Shown here piece after piece: positions 4,295 to 64,000 of a stretch of DNA of 64,000 nt (its first letter is position 1; every line of letters begins with the position of its first letter). Under the pieces are notes generated by a model. It searched no databases and was not told where the DNA came from. It was given only the letters and a program-made list of their open reading frames with translations. Both the position numbers and the translations under genes were made by a program. The DNA is from Acidimicrobiales bacterium (GTDB lineage Bacteria; Actinomycetota; Acidimicrobiia; Acidimicrobiales; JAUJNH01), in NCBI GenBank assembly GCA_030448245.1, contig JAUJNH010000004.1, forward strand, positions 248,001 to 312,000, in the 5' to 3' direction.

Positions 4295-6934
4295 TCAGCG
4301 TTGGTGGAAGCGGGCTTGCAGCGTCCGGCCCAGCTCGACCATCTTTCGAGCACGGGGGTAGGCGCGGCGGGCGATAGCCAGGGCCATCGAGGCGCGATCG
4401 CGCCCGGGCACCACACCCGGCGAGCTGGGCAGCCACCCGAACCCGATCTCCACCTCGGCGCGGTACACGTCCACCCCCCACTCGGGCGGGCACTCGTAGG
4501 ACAGCCGCGGGGCCCGATGGGATCCGAGGAGGAGGTTGCCGGACAGGAGTTCGCCGCCGTGGTAGCGGAGCCGACTGTCGCCGTCCGGCCAGCGGACGTC
4601 GACGATCACCGGCTCGGACCGTCCCCTGATCCCGAACAGCAGCCGCATCCAATCCAGCCGGACGAGGCCGGGACCCGGCGGGAACCCGATGCCCACGGCT
4701 CGCAACGGGTTGGCGTCCACCTGCTGGCGCAGGTAGTACAGGCCCCGGCTGTTGGCCCGCATCGGTGGCTGGCGCCGTGGGATGAGCCCGGCGCCGAAGT
4801 CGACGTAGAGGGTGCCGTGGGTGTCTTCGGCGCTGGTGAAGACATCGGCAGGCAGCTCACCAAAGGCGACGGAGGCGGCCGCCCGGGCTAGGGGCGGGTT
4901 GTGGAGCGCGGCCACTGCGAACGGCCAGAAGAGCCGGGTCATGGGCAACTCGAGCAGCTGGAGAGGCGTCATGTACTCGAGCCTCCCGGCCACCGCCTCG
5001 TCCAGCACCCTCTCGGAGGCGTTCGACCCCCAGTTGTCGTCATGGAGCCAGGAGCCGAAGAGGGCCGCCTCTTCGGGTGTGGGCTCGACGACGAAGCGCA
5101 TCAGGATGGCGCGAAGCAGCGGGCGGGCCAGGTCGTTCAGGGCGTGGTGCTCCTCCGGCACCACACCCGCATACCTGCCCCACGTGTCCTGCAGGGCCAA
5201 TATCCCACCCTGGACGGCACGACGCTCGGCATGGTGTTCGGGATCGCCAGAACCCGGCGCGGTCATCGGCCGGCCGTCGTCGTGGAACCCCACGAGAGAT
5301 CCCACCTCCGGCATACAAACCTGTTCGATGATCTCCGGGCTCCGCATGATCCAGCGCACGCTCGGTTCCGGCAGCCCGAGGGTCCCCAGGAAACCTTCGG
5401 CGACCACCCCATCGAGGACGCGCTCGACAGCGGCATCGTTGGTCAGCAGGTAGAGCCCCCGAGTTCGCAGCGCCACGCCCTCCGCCCGCAGCGCGGCGTC
5501 GAGGGCGGCCTGGATGGTGGCTCCCCATCCCAGGTCGACCAGAACGACCTCGCCGGTGTCGCGCCCCGCCGTCGCCACCACGTGCTCGACCAGCCGGCGC
5601 CGGGTCTGGGCGCAGTGGGCGATCACCACCGCCCGCAGCTCGCCATCTTCGGTCACCGACCGGATGAAGCGCTGCCGGAGGGCGGGGTCGTCGAGGAGGT
5701 CGGAGCCCCGTGCGGCCAGCCCGGGCAGCTGGTCCGGGGTGAGCCCGAGGCCTGCGCAGGCCGCGGAGAGCGTGGGTGGCAGGCGGCGGCGCAGGAACGC
5801 GTTGATCTCCCGCGCCGAACAGTTCGCCACGGCCGCCTGCGAGGACACGTACCGGGACAGCCATACGGTGGAGATGTCGACTCCACCGTCGGGACGCTGG
5901 CGCCCTGCGTTCTGCAGCAGGGGCGCCAGGAAGGCGCCCTCGCGCATCGCACAGAGAGCTTGGCCGGCGCCCGCCGCAGCTGCCCGTTCATGCACCCACG
6001 CCGCGAAAGCGGTGAAAACCGGCCCGAACACGGCGGCGCCGGTCATCCAGCACGCCCGCTGACGTTCGGGCAGCGAGGTGGTCACGGTCCCGCGCAGGGC
6101 CTTGGCCCGCAGCGCCGTGAGCCCGAGGTCCCTGCTCCCGTCCACCAGAGGAGCCCGACGCCGAGAGACGGCATCCCCGCGGGCGAAGCCTTCCCGGTGA
6201 AGCAGGGTCGGCAGCGGCTCCGGGCGGCGCGGGAGGAGGACGGCGTGGATCCCCAGCTTGGCCGGACAAGCGACGTCGGCATCGGGGTCATCCCCGAGGT
6301 GCACCACCTCGCCGCCGGTCACCCCCAGGTCTCGCAGAACCGTCTGGAACAGCCCGGAACCCTTGTGGCGCTTGTGCTCCGAGGACGTGAAGACAGCGTC
6401 CAGCCGGATGCCGGTGAAGGGAGGACGATCGAGGATCCGACACAGCTGCCCCCCCGAGAAGTAGGTGTTCGACACCAGCACCACCCGGACATCGCTCGAC
6501 GCCTGCAGGGACCGGGCCAGCTCCACCACCGCGAGGTCAGGAAAGGTGATCGACCGTTCCACCTCGACCTCGAGCGCGGCCAGCTCGGCGGGATCCCCTT
6601 CCCGTACCATGGCCGGAAGCTCCTCGTAGACCTCCTCCAGCGACACTTCGGGAGTTGATCGCGCCCGCTGGCTCCTGGCGCGGGCCCGCACCTCTGCCGC
6701 CTCCCGGAGAGCCGCGAAGGCTTCGGGCGGGCAGCTGAGCCGGCCGGCTCGGGCCAGGCCCCGCCCCACTTCCACAAAGGCGTCAACGGGCTCCGGCACG
6801 ACGCGCCAGACCAGAGTGTCGAACACGTCCAGCGAGAGGACCTTCACCGACTCCCGCTCCGCCACCAGCCGCGCCCGGGCTACTGCAGCGTCCTCGACTG
6901 GCCCTGCCGGCGCCGCAGCCCGCGGGCTGCTCAT
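4295..6934 (-). CDS. Large HAD-type protein with C-terminal extension (downstream copy)
   Basis: An 879-residue protein. An N-terminal HAD phosphatase-like domain carries motif I as DVFDT (residues 36-40), a motif II-like stretch reading VVLVSNTYFS, and an acidic motif III reading HLGDDPDAD. The remaining ~600 residues form a separate region with the signature VVLVDLGWGATIQ, which I recall from the COG5610-type predicted HAD hydrolases of capsule and O-antigen loci. The substrate is unknown; a phosphosugar or a glycan phosphate group is a reasonable guess. The ATG at 6934 overlaps the TGA of the upstream paralogue by four bases (ATGA), so the pair is translationally coupled. No signal peptide is seen, so it probably acts in the cytoplasm. 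Confidence 0.8.
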   Translation of the reverse strand: MSSPRAAAPAGPVEDAAVARARLVAERESVKVLSLDVFDTLVWRVVPEPVDAFVEVGRGLARAGRLSCPPEAFAALREAAEVRARARSQRARSTPEVSLEEVYEELPAMVREGDPAELAALEVEVERSITFPDLAVVELARSLQASSDVRVVLVSNTYFSGGQLCRILDRPPFTGIRLDAVFTSSEHKRHKGSGLFQTVLRDLGVTGGEVVHLGDDPDADVACPAKLGIHAVLLPRRPEPLPTLLHREGFARGDAVSRRRAPLVDGSRDLGLTALRAKALRGTVTTSLPERQRACWMTGAAVFGPVFTAFAAWVHERAAAAGAGQALCAMREGAFLAPLLQNAGRQRPDGGVDISTVWLSRYVSSQAAVANCSAREINAFLRRRLPPTLSAACAGLGLTPDQLPGLAARGSDLLDDPALRQRFIRSVTEDGELRAVVIAHCAQTRRRLVEHVVATAGRDTGEVVLVDLGWGATIQAALDAALRAEGVALRTRGLYLLTNDAAVERVLDGVVAEGFLGTLGLPEPSVRWIMRSPEIIEQVCMPEVGSLVGFHDDGRPMTAPGSGDPEHHAERRAVQGGILALQDTWGRYAGVVPEEHHALNDLARPLLRAILMRFVVEPTPEEAALFGSWLHDDNWGSNASERVLDEAVAGRLEYMTPLQLLELPMTRLFWPFAVAALHNPPLARAAASVAFGELPADVFTSAEDTHGTLYVDFGAGLIPRRQPPMRANSRGLYYLRQQVDANPLRAVGIGFPPGPGLVRLDWMRLLFGIRGRSEPVIVDVRWPDGDSRLRYHGGELLSGNLLLGSHRAPRLSYECPPEWGVDVYRAEVEIGFGWLPSSPGVVPGRDRASMALAIARRAYPRARKMVELGRTLQARFHQR

Positions 6935-9579
6935 GCCCGTGGCCGGAACCGGTCGGTCGCCTCTCGGCCTGCGGATGTCCAGGCCCTGCTGGCGCGGCGC
7001 CGAGCGATGCGGACCGCGTGCAGGAGCACCTCGGCCCTTCCGGCGGGTGGGCTGGCGAGGCGCGGCAGTGGCATCCACGCGAACGCCATCTCCACCTCGA
7101 CGGCGTAGACGCTCGACCCCCAGTCCGCTGGGCACCGGTACACCACCTCGGGCGCCGCCGCGTGAGAGAGCAGCACGTTGTCCGCGAGCGCAACCCCGCT
7201 CTGCAGCATGCTGGTCGGAAAACCGTCCGCTCCATTCAGCTCGACCACGAACGCAGCGTGATCCTGCCGGGCGAACACCAGACGCATCCAGTCGACGCGG
7301 AGCAGGGCGGGCCCCTCTCCGATGTTCAGCATGATCGCCTGGATGGGCCGACCCGTCACCTCCTGTCGGACATAGGACAGCCCGTTGGTGTTGGGCCCCG
7401 CGAAGAGCCGCGCCGCCTCGGCGAAGCCGGCTCCCCGATCGGCCAGCACTCGAACCTGGCAGGGGTTGCTCGGCTCCGCGGCCATCGCCGGGAGCCGGCC
7501 CTCGGCGATCGCCGCGGCAGACATGGCCAGGTGAGGATTGGAGAGCGAGGCGAGGGCGAACGTCCAGTAGGCCTTGTTCATGGGCAGCTCCAGCAGCTGG
7601 CACGGGGTCATGTGCCGCAGAGCCGTCACTGCTCCCGGCACGACCATGGTCTCGATCTCGGTGGAACCGAAGCCCTGGTCGTGCCCCCACCCCGCGAACA
7701 GCCCGATCTCCTCGGCCGTCGGTTCCACGATGAACCGGGTGATCATCTTCGTGAGCTGCGGCCGGGCCGGGGCGTCGAGGGTCCGCATGCGCGGCGGGAC
7801 GACCTCGCTGTAGCGCCCCCACTCCTCCTGGAAGGCGAGGATCCCAGCTTGGACGGCAGTGCGTTGGAGCGTCTGCGTGGGAGTGTCGTCACGAGGCCCG
7901 AGGATGGGCTCGCTGTCGCTGGAGAAGTCGACCAGGGAGCCCCGGTCGTGCATGCACACCTGCTCGAGGATCTCCGGGTTCCTGATGATCCAGTGCGCCT
8001 CCGCCGGCAGGCCACCATCGGCCAGGAAGCCTTCGGCCTGCAGGCCAGACACCATCCGGTCGAGGACGCCTTCGTTCGTGAGCAGGTACAGGCCGATGGT
8101 GCTGAGCTTGCAGCCGCTCTGCGTCAGCGCCTTGTCGAGGTAGGCCTGGATGGTCCCGCCCCACCCCAGGTCCACGAGCACCACCGGTTGATCATGGTGC
8201 TCGACCGTGTCCAGGAAGTAGTCGATCAGGCGGGTGCGCAGCTGGGAAGCACCGGCGATGATGGTGGCCCTGGCGGCAGGGTCGTCGACGAGGTGGTCCA
8301 CCACCCGCCGGACCAGCTCGGGATCGTCCATGGTCTGCCCGCCGCCGGTGTGGACCTCGGCCAGCTGGTCCATGCCGATGCCCACGCTGTCGCAGAAGTG
8401 CTTCAGCGTTGGCGGGACCCGCCGGGCGAGGAACCGCTCGAGCACGTCGCTGGTGACCTCGGCTATGGCAGCACGGGCGACGACCTGGCGGGAGAGCCAG
8501 ATCGGTCGGGCTCGGACGGGCGAGTCGAGATAGGTGCCGGCGCCGTTCACGAGCCGGGTGAGGAACTCGCCCTCGCGCATCATGCAGTAGACGGTGTCCA
8601 CCCCTTGGGCCTGCGCCCGGGCGTGGATCCACTCCGCGAACGCGACGAAGCTGGGGCCGAGGACGGACGCCCCGAAGCGCCAGTACGGGTCGGAGGCGCC
8701 ACCGCCGCGGCTCGGGACGGCCCGGCGCATGGACTTCGACCTGAGCGCCGTCAGCCCGAAGTCCCCGCAGCGGGGGTCGAGGGTCGGCTTCACCTCCTGG
8801 CGGTGGTCTCGCCGGCACAGGCCTTCGTCTTCGAGGATCCCAGGCAGCGAGCCGGTGAGCTTCTCGAGGTGAACGGCCCGCACGCCGCAGAGCTGCGCCG
8901 CCTCGACGTCGGCGGCACGGTTGTCGCCGATGTGGAGGACGGCGCCCGGTGTGACATCGAGCGACCGAATGACGATCGGGAACAGCCCTGATCCCTTTCC
9001 CACGCCGTACTGGTTGGAGGCGAAGACGCGCTCGAACTCCTCCGCGTGGAGCGGATCCTGGTCCAGGAGGATCCGCAGCTGCTGCTCGGAGAAGTAGGTG
9101 TCGGACACGAGGATCAGGCGGACCCCGAGCTGGCTCTTCGCCCAGCGGGCCAAGGCGAGCACGTCGAGGTCAGGAAAGGTGATCGACGTCTCGAGCTCGA
9201 CCTCGATGGCCTCAAGATCGGCGACCGAGCCCACGCGAGCGAGGTGGCCCGGAAGCTCCGCGTAGACCTCGGTGAGGGTGATCTCCGGCACGCGGCCCTG
9301 CTTGATCGCCTTGCCCCGAGCCTTCCACTCGGCTCGCTCCCGGAGGCGGGCGAACAGGTCGGGTGACACCTCCCGGTTGAGCCAATCGAGGTCGAGCAGG
9401 TGCTGGCCCAGCAGCACGAACGCGTCGACCGGCTCGGGAACCGCCCGCCACAGGAGGGTGTCGAAGATGTCGATCGACAGGACCTCGAAGGACTCCCGCT
9501 CCAGCAGCCGGGCGGCATCGGCCAACCCGGTGAGCCCGTGCAGCCGGGCATCGGCCTGGGTGCTCTCGGTGCTCACCAT
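6931..9579 (-). CDS. Large HAD-type protein with C-terminal extension (upstream copy)
   Basis: An 882-residue paralogue of the gene that follows it, with the same architecture: HAD motif I as DIFDT (residues 37-41), a motif II-like VSDTYFSEQQ, motif III HIGDNRAADV, and the C-terminal signature VVLVDLGWGGTIQ. Both share stretches such as EIGLFAGW or its equivalent and a PLQLLELPM-like motif, so the copies arose by tandem duplication but have diverged well beyond a recent event. I chose the ATG at 9579 because homology to the second copy begins soon after it; the open frame extends further upstream through low-complexity Arg/Pro-rich sequence that looks non-coding. Function is not known. Its setting in a glycan locus suggests a phosphatase-like step or regulation of glycan assembly. 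Confidence 0.8.
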   Translation of the reverse strand: MVSTESTQADARLHGLTGLADAARLLERESFEVLSIDIFDTLLWRAVPEPVDAFVLLGQHLLDLDWLNREVSPDLFARLRERAEWKARGKAIKQGRVPEITLTEVYAELPGHLARVGSVADLEAIEVELETSITFPDLDVLALARWAKSQLGVRLILVSDTYFSEQQLRILLDQDPLHAEEFERVFASNQYGVGKGSGLFPIVIRSLDVTPGAVLHIGDNRAADVEAAQLCGVRAVHLEKLTGSLPGILEDEGLCRRDHRQEVKPTLDPRCGDFGLTALRSKSMRRAVPSRGGGASDPYWRFGASVLGPSFVAFAEWIHARAQAQGVDTVYCMMREGEFLTRLVNGAGTYLDSPVRARPIWLSRQVVARAAIAEVTSDVLERFLARRVPPTLKHFCDSVGIGMDQLAEVHTGGGQTMDDPELVRRVVDHLVDDPAARATIIAGASQLRTRLIDYFLDTVEHHDQPVVLVDLGWGGTIQAYLDKALTQSGCKLSTIGLYLLTNEGVLDRMVSGLQAEGFLADGGLPAEAHWIIRNPEILEQVCMHDRGSLVDFSSDSEPILGPRDDTPTQTLQRTAVQAGILAFQEEWGRYSEVVPPRMRTLDAPARPQLTKMITRFIVEPTAEEIGLFAGWGHDQGFGSTEIETMVVPGAVTALRHMTPCQLLELPMNKAYWTFALASLSNPHLAMSAAAIAEGRLPAMAAEPSNPCQVRVLADRGAGFAEAARLFAGPNTNGLSYVRQEVTGRPIQAIMLNIGEGPALLRVDWMRLVFARQDHAAFVVELNGADGFPTSMLQSGVALADNVLLSHAAAPEVVYRCPADWGSSVYAVEVEMAFAWMPLPRLASPPAGRAEVLLHAVRIARRRASRAWTSAGREATDRFRPRA

Positions 9580-9687
9580 CGGTCTGAACCGCCTGCCTTT
9601 GTAGCCTCGACCTCTGCACGTTAGTGGTGGCGGCCATCCCGCCCCCCTGGAGTGGCGTGAGGTGGGGGCGCGGGGACGGTGTTGGTC

Positions 9688-9693
9688 TACGCT
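9688..9693 (+). promoter_or_regulatory. -10-like TACGCT upstream of the methyltransferase
   Basis: TACGCT lies 41 bases before the CTG chosen as start at 9735. If real, it excludes the earlier in-frame GTG codons at 9624 and 9657. Confidence 0.3.
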
Positions 9694-9734
9694 TCCGACG
9701 CCGCCGGGCGACCGGCGAGAGCGGAGGAGCGGTT

Positions 9735-10904
9735 CTGGACGGGACAAAGGAGAGCGCGCCGACGGAGGTTGGTGAGGAGTTCACCCCCAACGAGGAGGAG
9801 GTCCAGCCCCCCCTGCTGCTGCACTCCCTGGCCGAGTTCCGCGAGCTGATCCAGGCTTGTCTCGACGCCTCGGGCGCGAAGACGGTCGCCGAGATCGGCT
9901 CGCAGGACGGCAGTTCGACGCAGCAGCTCCTGGAGTGGGCCGAGGCTCGCGACGCCCACCTCTTCTGCATCGATCCTGCACCGACACCCGAGCTCGTGGA
10001 GCTTGTCGCAGGCTCACCACGAGCGGACCTCATCCTCGAGCTCAGCCTGCATGCGCTGCCGCACCTCGAGCCGTGCGACGCCTACCTCATCGACGGCGAT
10101 CACAACTACTACACGGTAGACCGAGAGCTGCGGGCCATCGCCGCACAAGCCGACGCTGAGGGCCGGTATCCGCTGGTCTTCCTGCATGACGTGGCGTGGC
10201 CGTGGGGGCGCCGAGACATGTACTACGCCCCGGACACCATCCCGCCGGAGGCGCGCCGCGAGCACACGTATGACAAGGGAACGGTCCCTTGGCGCGCCGA
10301 CGTGGTCGAAGGAGGCTTTCGAAGCGAAGGGCACTTCGCCCTGGCGCTGCGCGAGGGCGGGCCTCGCAACGGCGTCCTGACCGCGGTGGAGGACTTCCTG
10401 CGCGATCACCCCGACCTGACGTTCGCGAAGGTCCCCTGCGTCTTCGGGCTCGGCGTCGTGTACTCGTCGTCGGTGCCGTACGCCGCGGCCGTGGGCCAGA
10501 TCCTCGAGCGCTACGACGGCGACGTGCTGCTTCGCCGGCTCGAGGACAACCGCCTGGCCCTGTACGTGCGGCTCCTGCAGCTGCAGGACGACATGGTCGA
10601 GCTGCACCGCGTCCGGCACGACGACCTCCGCGAGCTGCACCGGGAGCTCGAGAAGTCCTGGCTCTACGTCCGAGACGTGGAGGTCGAGAACCGCGCCCTG
10701 CGGGGCCGGATCGGCGAGCTGGAGGAGCAGGCACGGGTGGCGGCGCACCGCCACGACGAGCTGGTCCAGGAGGTGCGGGCGGTCGTCGGGTCTCGATCGA
10801 TCGTTGCTGCCGAGTTGACCTCACGGCTGCTCGGGCGCCTCAGGAACCAGCCCAGCCTGTCCTTCGGACGCCTTCGGGCCCTGGCCGAGCAGGACGGCGC
10901 CTAG
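9735..10904 (+). CDS. Class I SAM-dependent methyltransferase with C-terminal coiled coil
   Basis: The core has a Rossmann-type SAM site reading VAEIGSQDGSST, an acidic CIDPAP at the end of strand 2, and DAYLIDGDHNYY, the pattern of Methyltransf_24-type enzymes of glycan clusters. A central insert precedes a C-terminal part (about the last 120 residues) with heptad-like leucines that should form a coiled coil. It probably methylates a sugar or a glycan end; the target is not known. Start choice is difficult. In-frame GTG codons at 9624 and 9657 sit in Arg/Gly-rich sequence, whereas a CTG at 9735 follows a strong GGAGGAG (9723-9729) with five-base spacing, and no in-frame ATG, GTG or TTG lies nearby downstream. 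I therefore use 9735; the longer forms remain possible. Confidence 0.75.
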   Translation: MDGTKESAPTEVGEEFTPNEEEVQPPLLLHSLAEFRELIQACLDASGAKTVAEIGSQDGSSTQQLLEWAEARDAHLFCIDPAPTPELVELVAGSPRADLILELSLHALPHLEPCDAYLIDGDHNYYTVDRELRAIAAQADAEGRYPLVFLHDVAWPWGRRDMYYAPDTIPPEARREHTYDKGTVPWRADVVEGGFRSEGHFALALREGGPRNGVLTAVEDFLRDHPDLTFAKVPCVFGLGVVYSSSVPYAAAVGQILERYDGDVLLRRLEDNRLALYVRLLQLQDDMVELHRVRHDDLRELHRELEKSWLYVRDVEVENRALRGRIGELEEQARVAAHRHDELVQEVRAVVGSRSIVAAELTSRLLGRLRNQPSLSFGRLRALAEQDGA

Positions 10905-53936: not shown

Positions 53937-54281
53937 TGGTGGAGGTGCCGGGATTCGAACCCGGGTCCTTCAGCGTGTTGACGGGTCTTCTCCGGGCGCA
54001 GCCGGTGGAAGGTCTCGGACCCGCCTTCGCCACCGGCGCCGGTGGCGGGTCCCAGCCCGCTGTTGGTGTTCCCGGCTAGCCCGTGGGCTCGGCTAGCAGG
54101 GTGAGCCCTCTTGATGACGCCCAGACCCGGCCCAAGGGGCGGAGACCGGAAGGACGTGGCTATGCAGCCAGGGTGAGCTTAGGCTCGGCAATTATTTTGG
54201 TTCCGGCTCTTTAACGTGGTTCCGGAGACCACGACCCGCTTCATCCGTCTCGACGTCCAAAGTCGAAACCAGATCACCCCC
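53937..54281 (-). ncRNA. ssrA: tmRNA
   Basis: On the minus strand the 5' end GGGGGTGATCTGGTTTCGAC (from 54281) and the 3' T-arm GGGTTCGAATCCC with CACCTCC then ACCA (to 53937) pair as the tRNA-like acceptor stem; 345 bases in all, with CCA encoded. The tag frame runs from 54189 to 54160: GCC GAG CCT AAG CTC ACC CTG GCT GCA TAG, encoding AEPKLTLAA, with the LAA end used by proteases. It rescues stalled ribosomes with SmpB. The resume codon is inferred from the pattern around it. Several pseudoknot-forming GC-rich segments are visible. Confidence 0.95.
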
Positions 54282-62911: not shown

Positions 62912-63862
62912 ATGTCCGCTCCTTGGCCGCCCCCGCCGCCGGTGGCACCCGCTCTGGCCTGCTACCGCCACCCCAAGCTCCCCGCCCCGGTCACCTGCAC
63001 CCGCTGCGACCGCCCGATCTGCACCGACTGCATGGTCAGCGCACCCGTCGGCTGGCAGTGCCCGGGCTGCCTCAAGGGCGCGCCGGCGGTACGGCGGATG
63101 CGCGACGTCCAGGGTGGCGGCCTGGCCGGCGGCACCCCGTACGCCACCTACGCCCTCCTGGCCAGCTGCGTGGCCCTCTACGTCGGCCAGCAGGTGTCGA
63201 ACCTCACCGAGCGGGGCGTGGTGGTGGCCACCATGGTCTCCCAGGGCGAGCTGTGGCGGGTGGTCACCTCCGGCTTCCTGCACGGCAGCCCGATCCACCT
63301 GCTGTTCAACATGCTGATCCTGTACCAGCTCGGCACGGCCGTCGAGGGGCGCCTGGGGCGGGCCCGCTACCTGGGCGTCTACTTCCTCTCCCTCGTCGGC
63401 GGCTCGATCGGCGCCCTGCTCCTCCAGCCCCCGGCCACCGCTTCGCTCGGTGCCTCGGGCGCGGTGTTCGGACTGATGGGCGCCGTGGTCGTGCTCTCCA
63501 AGCGTGGCCGCTCGCCCGTCGAGTCGGGCGTGGCCGGGCTGCTCGTCGTCAACCTGTTCATCACCTTCCTCTTCCCGGGCATCTCCATCGGCGGCCACCT
63601 GGGTGGACTGGCCGCCGGCGTGCTGGCCGGCCTCGTCATCCGGGCCTTCGGCGAGGGCGCCGACCAGCGGCGGGTCGTGCTGACAGCAGTCGTGCTGGTC
63701 GTCCTCACCGTCGGGCTGTTCGCGGCGTCGGCTCCCGTGGCCCGGTGGCGGTGCAGCACCCAGAGCTCGTCGGCCCTGAGCCGCGACCGGAACCCGGCCC
63801 GGCCGTTCGACCCCGAGGTGCTCCAGGCCTTCCGAGACCGGGCGGAGCAGCTCTGCGAGTGA
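62912..63862 (+). CDS. Rhomboid family serine protease with N-terminal zinc finger
   Basis: 316 residues. Cysteines at about 17, 29, 32, 37, 40, 50 and 53, with a His at 20, form a B-box-like zinc finger. The rhomboid part has six helices: HLLFNMLILYQLG in the second, GASGAVFG with catalytic Ser182, and SIGGHLGGLAAG with His229. It cuts membrane helices of unknown targets. In mycobacteria a rhomboid (Rv1337) lies beside cysM and murI in the same region as the rph-rdgB genes, so this matches the wider neighbourhood. ATG start supported by TAGCCT ten bases upstream. Confidence 0.93.
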   Translation: MSAPWPPPPPVAPALACYRHPKLPAPVTCTRCDRPICTDCMVSAPVGWQCPGCLKGAPAVRRMRDVQGGGLAGGTPYATYALLASCVALYVGQQVSNLTERGVVVATMVSQGELWRVVTSGFLHGSPIHLLFNMLILYQLGTAVEGRLGRARYLGVYFLSLVGGSIGALLLQPPATASLGASGAVFGLMGAVVVLSKRGRSPVESGVAGLLVVNLFITFLFPGISIGGHLGGLAAGVLAGLVIRAFGEGADQRRVVLTAVVLVVLTVGLFAASAPVARWRCSTQSSSALSRDRNPARPFDPEVLQAFRDRAEQLCE

Positions 63863-63906: not shown

Positions 63907-63981
63907 GCCGGCGTAGCCCAATCGGCAGGAGGCAGATGGTTTAGGGCCATCCCAGTGCGGGTTCGAATCCCGCCGCCGGCA
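63907..63981 (+). tRNA. tRNA with UAG anticodon (Leu by code), class I shape
   Basis: Acceptor stem GCCGGCG/CGCCGGC (63907-63913 and 63974-63980), anticodon stem GATGG/CCATC with loop TTTAGGG, T-arm GCGGG-TTCGAAT-CCCGC, and a three-base-pair D stem. The anticodon by position is UAG (63942-63944), which reads CUA (leucine). The variable loop has only five bases, but tRNA-Leu normally has a long class II arm. The 3' CCA is not encoded (CCC follows the discriminator A). Amino-acid identity is uncertain. Confidence 0.8.
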
Positions 63982-64000
63982 CCCAACTTCCAGGTATGAC

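Follow-up and report, generated by a model that had tools for sequence, protein, structure and literature searches.

A class I tRNALeu(UAG) that probably serves in place of the class II form in Acidimicrobiales

The tRNA gene near the end of the window, by which we mean the whole stretch of 64,000 nucleotides analysed here, very probably encodes a genuine tRNALeu of class I form, one that would be charged by the single LeuRS of the cell and would decode CUA and, by wobble, CUG. We give this reading a probability of about 0.92. It is built on the sequence and fold of the gene, on its leucine identity core, on a one-for-one replacement of class II tRNALeu(UAG) in related genomes, on leucine at CUA sites, and on the presence of one LeuRS gene in each genome examined.

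ARAGORN calls tRNA-Leu(tag) at 63907–63983 on the plus strand, within the last 100 bases of the window, and cmscan with permissive filters matches RF00005 at 63907–63981 with 53.5 bits (E 6.9e-10). Since the gathering score is 29 and the gene has a covarying cloverleaf, it belongs to the tRNA family RF00005. Its parts are:

63907–63981, plus strand: class I tRNALeu(UAG), from G1 to discriminator A73 (ARAGORN; RF00005, 53.5 bits; homologues by models R1 and R3)
63907–63913, plus strand: 5′ half of the acceptor stem, GCCGGCG, pairing with 63974–63980; the helix covaries and is 98.7% paired in homologues
63916–63933, plus strand: D arm of leucine type, parsed from the sequence and also present in the class II leucine tRNAs of the same genome; 3-bp stem, 13:22 unpaired (C.A), A14 and A15, G18G19, C20 and A20a
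63935–63951, plus strand: anticodon arm of 5 pairs, each changed on both sides among homologues
63942–63944, plus strand: anticodon UAG (T63942-A-G63944), called by ARAGORN and recomputed from the sequence
63952–63956, plus strand: 5-nt variable loop CCAGU (CCAGT in DNA) where a long arm is expected, read and recomputed from the sequence; its last base is U48, which pairs with A15
63957–63973, plus strand: T arm, 99.1% of cells paired in homologues
63974–63980, plus strand: 3′ half of the acceptor stem, pairing with 63907–63913
63981–63981, plus strand: discriminator base A73, from the sequence; in E. coli this base is the chief determinant of leucine identity (PMC9976931)

The 3′ end is encoded as A73-CCC, not CCA. 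The free energy of the gene taken alone is only moderately low (z −2.07); the real structural evidence is comparative. Across 22 diverse homologues 98.0% of cloverleaf cells are paired, 14 of the 20 pairs have changed on both sides, and 0/500 shuffles reached the paired percentage or the covariation score of the homologues. The UAG anticodon, five-base variable loop and well-paired cloverleaf of the original prediction are thus confirmed by ARAGORN, the RF00005 score and covariation. At 5 nt, the variable loop is shorter than the class II arm (≥10 nt), and the 7-bp acceptor stem and short loop also separate this gene from allo-tRNAs and selC-like tRNAs, which have an 8- or 9-bp acceptor stem and an extended variable arm (PMC7609411).

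A rhomboid-family gene (62912–63862, PF01694) ends 44 bases before the start of the tRNA. No sigma-70-like promoter or terminator was found near the tRNA, but in a GC-rich actinobacterium this negative result carries little weight. About 4.8 kb downstream of the tRNA and outside the window, a transposase with a DDE_3 domain (PF13358; L039:6781–7581) probably belongs to an insertion sequence. Elsewhere in the window are a tmRNA gene on the minus strand (53937–54281) with a short predicted tag, AEPKLTLAA, and a gene for a 938-aa protein on the minus strand (6931–9747), of which residues 74–405 match PDB Bcs3 entries with E 6e-8.

The identity elements of E. coli tRNALeu are A73, the A15-U48 pair, G18G19 and A20a (PMC9976931), and the long arm is dispensable for E. 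coli LeuRS, which still charges a minimal tRNALeu without the arm (reviewed in PMC9976931). Our identity test used these four features and the unpaired 13:22 of the leucine D arm. In a comparison that parsed every distinct tRNA found in the window's own genome, all five features were present in 4/4 leucine tRNAs (two class I and two class II) and in 0/37 of the other distinct tRNAs detected. Among homologues, they were present in 174/179 class I and 43/45 class II leucine tRNAs and in 1/129 non-leucine tRNAs; the D arm is part of the pattern or model with which many of these homologues were retrieved, so these counts are partly circular, and the own-genome comparison is free of this circularity.

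A tRNA that carries another amino acid was one of the possibilities named in the original prediction; CUA (or CUG) would then have a meaning other than leucine. The class I size agrees with this alternative, and tRNALys of the own genome has A15-U48 and A73 as in leucine, so that these features alone are not unique to leucine tRNAs. However, this tRNALys is without the A20a insertion and its 13:22 is paired. A20a was kept apart from A21 in our identity test, and a simpler test merging both lets tRNALys pass. A covariance model of class II leucine tRNAs only gives the window gene 56.6 bits and class I UAG genes 57–64, against 50.0 bits for the best non-leucine tRNA of the test set; two class I UAA genes score 49.7 and 51.5 with this model, level with the best non-leucine tRNAs. 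Outside the members of the class I UAG model, the highest score with it, 55.6 bits, belongs to a class II tRNALeu(UAG).

Anticodons and codons also argue against another amino acid. Model R1, a covariance model of five UAG genes that requires no anticodon, was searched in the order, and every tRNA read among its matches has a leucine anticodon (UAG, UAA, CAA or CAG). Class I leucine-type genes occur with all five leucine anticodons (UAA, CAA, UAG, CAG and GAG), and leucine is the only amino acid common to UUR and CUN. In filtered predicted genes of class I-UAG genomes, leucine stands opposite CUA in 72% of aligned residue pairs (24 sites, 110 pairs), compared with 68–73% for other leucine codons and 8% for GUG or AUC; CUA thus behaves as a leucine codon in this lineage. 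CUA is very rare (4/12,460 codons in the window's predicted genes), which leaves 24 sites for this test. Relatives carry leucine at the CUG sites of the window genome's LeuRS just as often as at its CUC sites. Neither the CUA test with its 24 sites nor the CUG sites of this LeuRS gave a sign of codon reassignment. Charging with another amino acid is therefore contradicted by the leucine core, the leucine-only anticodons of an anticodon-free model, the replacement of class II UAG described below and the CUA test, and we consider it very unlikely.

To follow the replacement of the class II gene, 396 genomes of the same order were surveyed with two patterns, one for each class of UAG tRNA. Class I UAG was found in 45/396 and class II UAG in 260/396, and both together in 0/396 versus 29.5 expected (mutual exclusion, hypergeometric p 4.6e-24, not corrected for relatedness). 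At least seven families (f7, f10, f14, f24, f30, f41 and f47) contain both kinds, in different member genomes, so the switch between class I and class II UAG occurred at least twice, or else its inheritance was uneven. Complete or near-complete relatives have exactly one tRNA, of class I or class II, for each of the five leucine anticodons:

G006 and G125: class I UAG and CAA; class II UAA, CAG and GAG
G002 and G242: class I UAG; the other four class II
G292: class I UAA; the other four class II
G032 and G084: all five class II

Under standard wobble rules, the class I UAG tRNA is the only tRNA found able to read CUA in G006, G125, G002 and G242, and, as the sole CUA reader, its gene should be needed for translation in these genomes. 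This bears on a non-translational job, such as that of an amino-acid donor for cell-wall or lipid synthesis. CUA is so rare that a dedicated tRNA looks little used, which would be in accordance with such a job, but the complete genomes contain no other CUA tRNA, and the anticodon and T arms are conserved, with covariation. The special non-translational role suggested originally finds no support here, and its chance is just as slight as that of another amino acid.

Four leucine-type tRNAs are present in the own genome, for which the assembly has 3.26 Mb and is 92.8% complete: class II CAA and GAG, and class I UAG and UAA. The second class I leucine tRNA, UAA, lies outside the window (contig C16:90225–90300; L047:101–176), has a 6-nt variable loop and belongs to the family of the window gene. 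Class II UAG, UAA and CAG were not found in this incomplete assembly, in which other expected tRNAs such as Arg(ACG) are also missing. Hence, these three absences from the own genome are weak alone, and for class II UAG the complete relatives carry the point. A normal class II tRNA-Leu(UAG), proposed originally as something to look for, was found neither here nor in any of the 45 class I UAG genomes (own included). We rejected the argument that the missing tRNALeu(CAG) forces the window tRNA to read CUG, because the assembly is also without Arg(ACG).

All genomes searched for LeuRS (8/8) have one LeuRS gene. Two LeuRS architectures exist within the order, with and without a leucine-specific insertion before the KMSKS motif. 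Among loci L301–L308, the insertion and KMGKS occur in the own genome (G000), G006 and G242, and no insertion, with KMSKS or KMSKT, in G032, G084, G045 and G292. The insertion is present in 32/45 class I UAG genomes versus 92/351 others (Fisher p 5.8e-9, not corrected for relatedness), an association from which we draw no conclusion. Nevertheless, class I UAG co-occurs with both architectures, and a requirement of the insertion for class I tRNALeu was rejected on account of class I genomes without it, e.g. G045. Since LeuRS of the class I tRNALeu genomes G045 and G292 is unlike that of the window genome in architecture, class I tRNALeu may not be recognised by every LeuRS type.

The window tRNA has lost the long variable arm but retains the parts needed by LeuRS in E. 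coli, namely A73, A15-U48, G18G19, A20a and the shape of the D arm. By analogy with E. coli tRNALeu, LeuRS most likely recognises A73 together with the tertiary core and copes without the arm. The single cellular LeuRS would then charge class I tRNA(UAG), and the charged tRNA would read CUA, and CUG by wobble, as leucine; the window tRNA is presumably expressed and modified. In this lineage, class I UAG has taken the slot of the ordinary class II tRNALeu(UAG), and sister class I tRNAs have done likewise for UAA and CAA; class I tRNAs with CAG and GAG are rarer. The suggestion of a leucine tRNA of unusual shape, also made in the original prediction, is strongly supported by the identity core, the one-for-one replacement and the CUA test. 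As a speculative and improbable extension, class I leucine tRNAs could form a separately handled pool, through LeuRS kinetics, modification or toxin sensitivity, making rare CUA and UUA a regulatory switch that is bldA-like (Streptomyces) in effect.

Class I leucine tRNAs are spread widely in the phylum Actinomycetota and stand in for the normal form in a large part of it, including Mycobacterium and Corynebacterium. A pattern scan of GTDB genomes, which allowed anticodons NAA/NAG only, gave among the matches listed Corynebacterium, Mycobacterium, Nocardia, Gordonia, Amycolatopsis, Micromonospora, Microbacterium, Arthrobacter, Nocardioides, Thermobifida, Bifidobacterium and many others; the GTAGCCCAAT-type tRNA genes mentioned for other actinobacteria in the original prediction do exist. 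The named assemblies closest in sequence, among the matches listed, are of Ilumatobacteraceae and Acidimicrobiaceae (L206, L254), so that the order surveyed is probably Acidimicrobiales. With the broader model R3, about 100 of 317 genomes of the phylum have strong class I matches (about 70 bits or more, counted by listed scores; other tested tRNAs score 64 or less), and 28/28 loci read from this search have leucine anticodons. A single origin of the family is what we infer. A few assemblies among the GTDB matches listed are labelled as other phyla, including Rokuibacteriota, Deltaproteobacteria, Acidobacteria and Phycisphaeraceae (L193, L207, L252 and L258), and may reflect transfer, deeper origin or mis-binning.

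Class I tRNALeu(CAG) at L130, L148 and L149 (family f30) and at L140 is closely clustered with unusual Ala, Pro and Cys tRNAs, and these arrays resemble those of mobile elements or phages. Similar tRNA-Leu genes are encoded by actinobacteriophages, e.g. Streptomyces phage SparkleGoddess and Rhodococcus phage Dorin. Phage relatives and the arrays with odd tRNAs speak for the possibility that the window gene is a degenerate tRNA or was carried in by a mobile element or phage. However, its stems are intact, its score is well above the cut-off, no second copy of the 3′ end, the mark of an attachment site, was found in the surrounding 18-kb stretch (L039, mostly downstream), and no other gene fills the decoding slot in relatives. 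Decay or passage is, in our view, extremely improbable, and we retain the functional class I tRNALeu.

According to reviews, a long variable arm typifies bacterial tRNALeu, and bacterial tRNAs are uniform in structure (PMC7609411, PMC4033280, PMC9976931). Yet in the phylum of Mycobacterium, Corynebacterium and Nocardia, many genomes do without the arm in one or two of their five leucine tRNAs, which provides a natural test of its dispensability as found for E. coli LeuRS. This bears on isotype models for annotation, on tRNA-targeting toxins that sense the arm and on the design of orthogonal tRNAs in these bacteria. A search of the open-access literature, with subscription papers largely outside it, gave no description of a bacterial class I tRNALeu family, and its spread and replacement pattern appear undescribed. 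The genes themselves are already known, as phage relatives are annotated tRNA-Leu and ARAGORN calls the family tRNA-Leu; new are the pattern and its interpretation.

Compared with class II bacterial tRNALeu (RF00005, isotype Leu), the window tRNA has the same anticodon, A73, A15-U48, G18G19, A20a, three-pair D stem with unpaired 13:22 and decoding slot, whereas its variable loop has 5 nt instead of about 15, with A9 for G9 and C12-G23 for G12-C23 in the D stem. In M. tuberculosis, tRNALeu-2, -3 and -5 are named as those with a long loop (PMC11541572), which suggests that the remaining tRNALeu are without it; that paper does not discuss the point, and the anticodons there are UAA/CAA, not UAG. 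We found class I CAA in a Mycobacterium genome and UAA and CAA in further genomes of that type. The cluster tRNALeu(TAG) of the Mycobacterium mucogenicum/neoaurum clade shares UAG, a short variable loop and an actinobacterial host (PMC6582537), but it lies in a tRNA array and is additional to a normal class II UAG (PMC6582537), whereas the window gene is the only UAG tRNA found in its genome. Human mitochondrial tRNALeu(UUR) is likewise a leucine tRNA without a long arm, recognised mainly via A73 and A14 (PMC9976931). It is organellar, was reduced separately and has a partly unfolded anticodon branch, whereas the window tRNA is bacterial, has a stable cloverleaf and shares its cell with class II leucine tRNAs.
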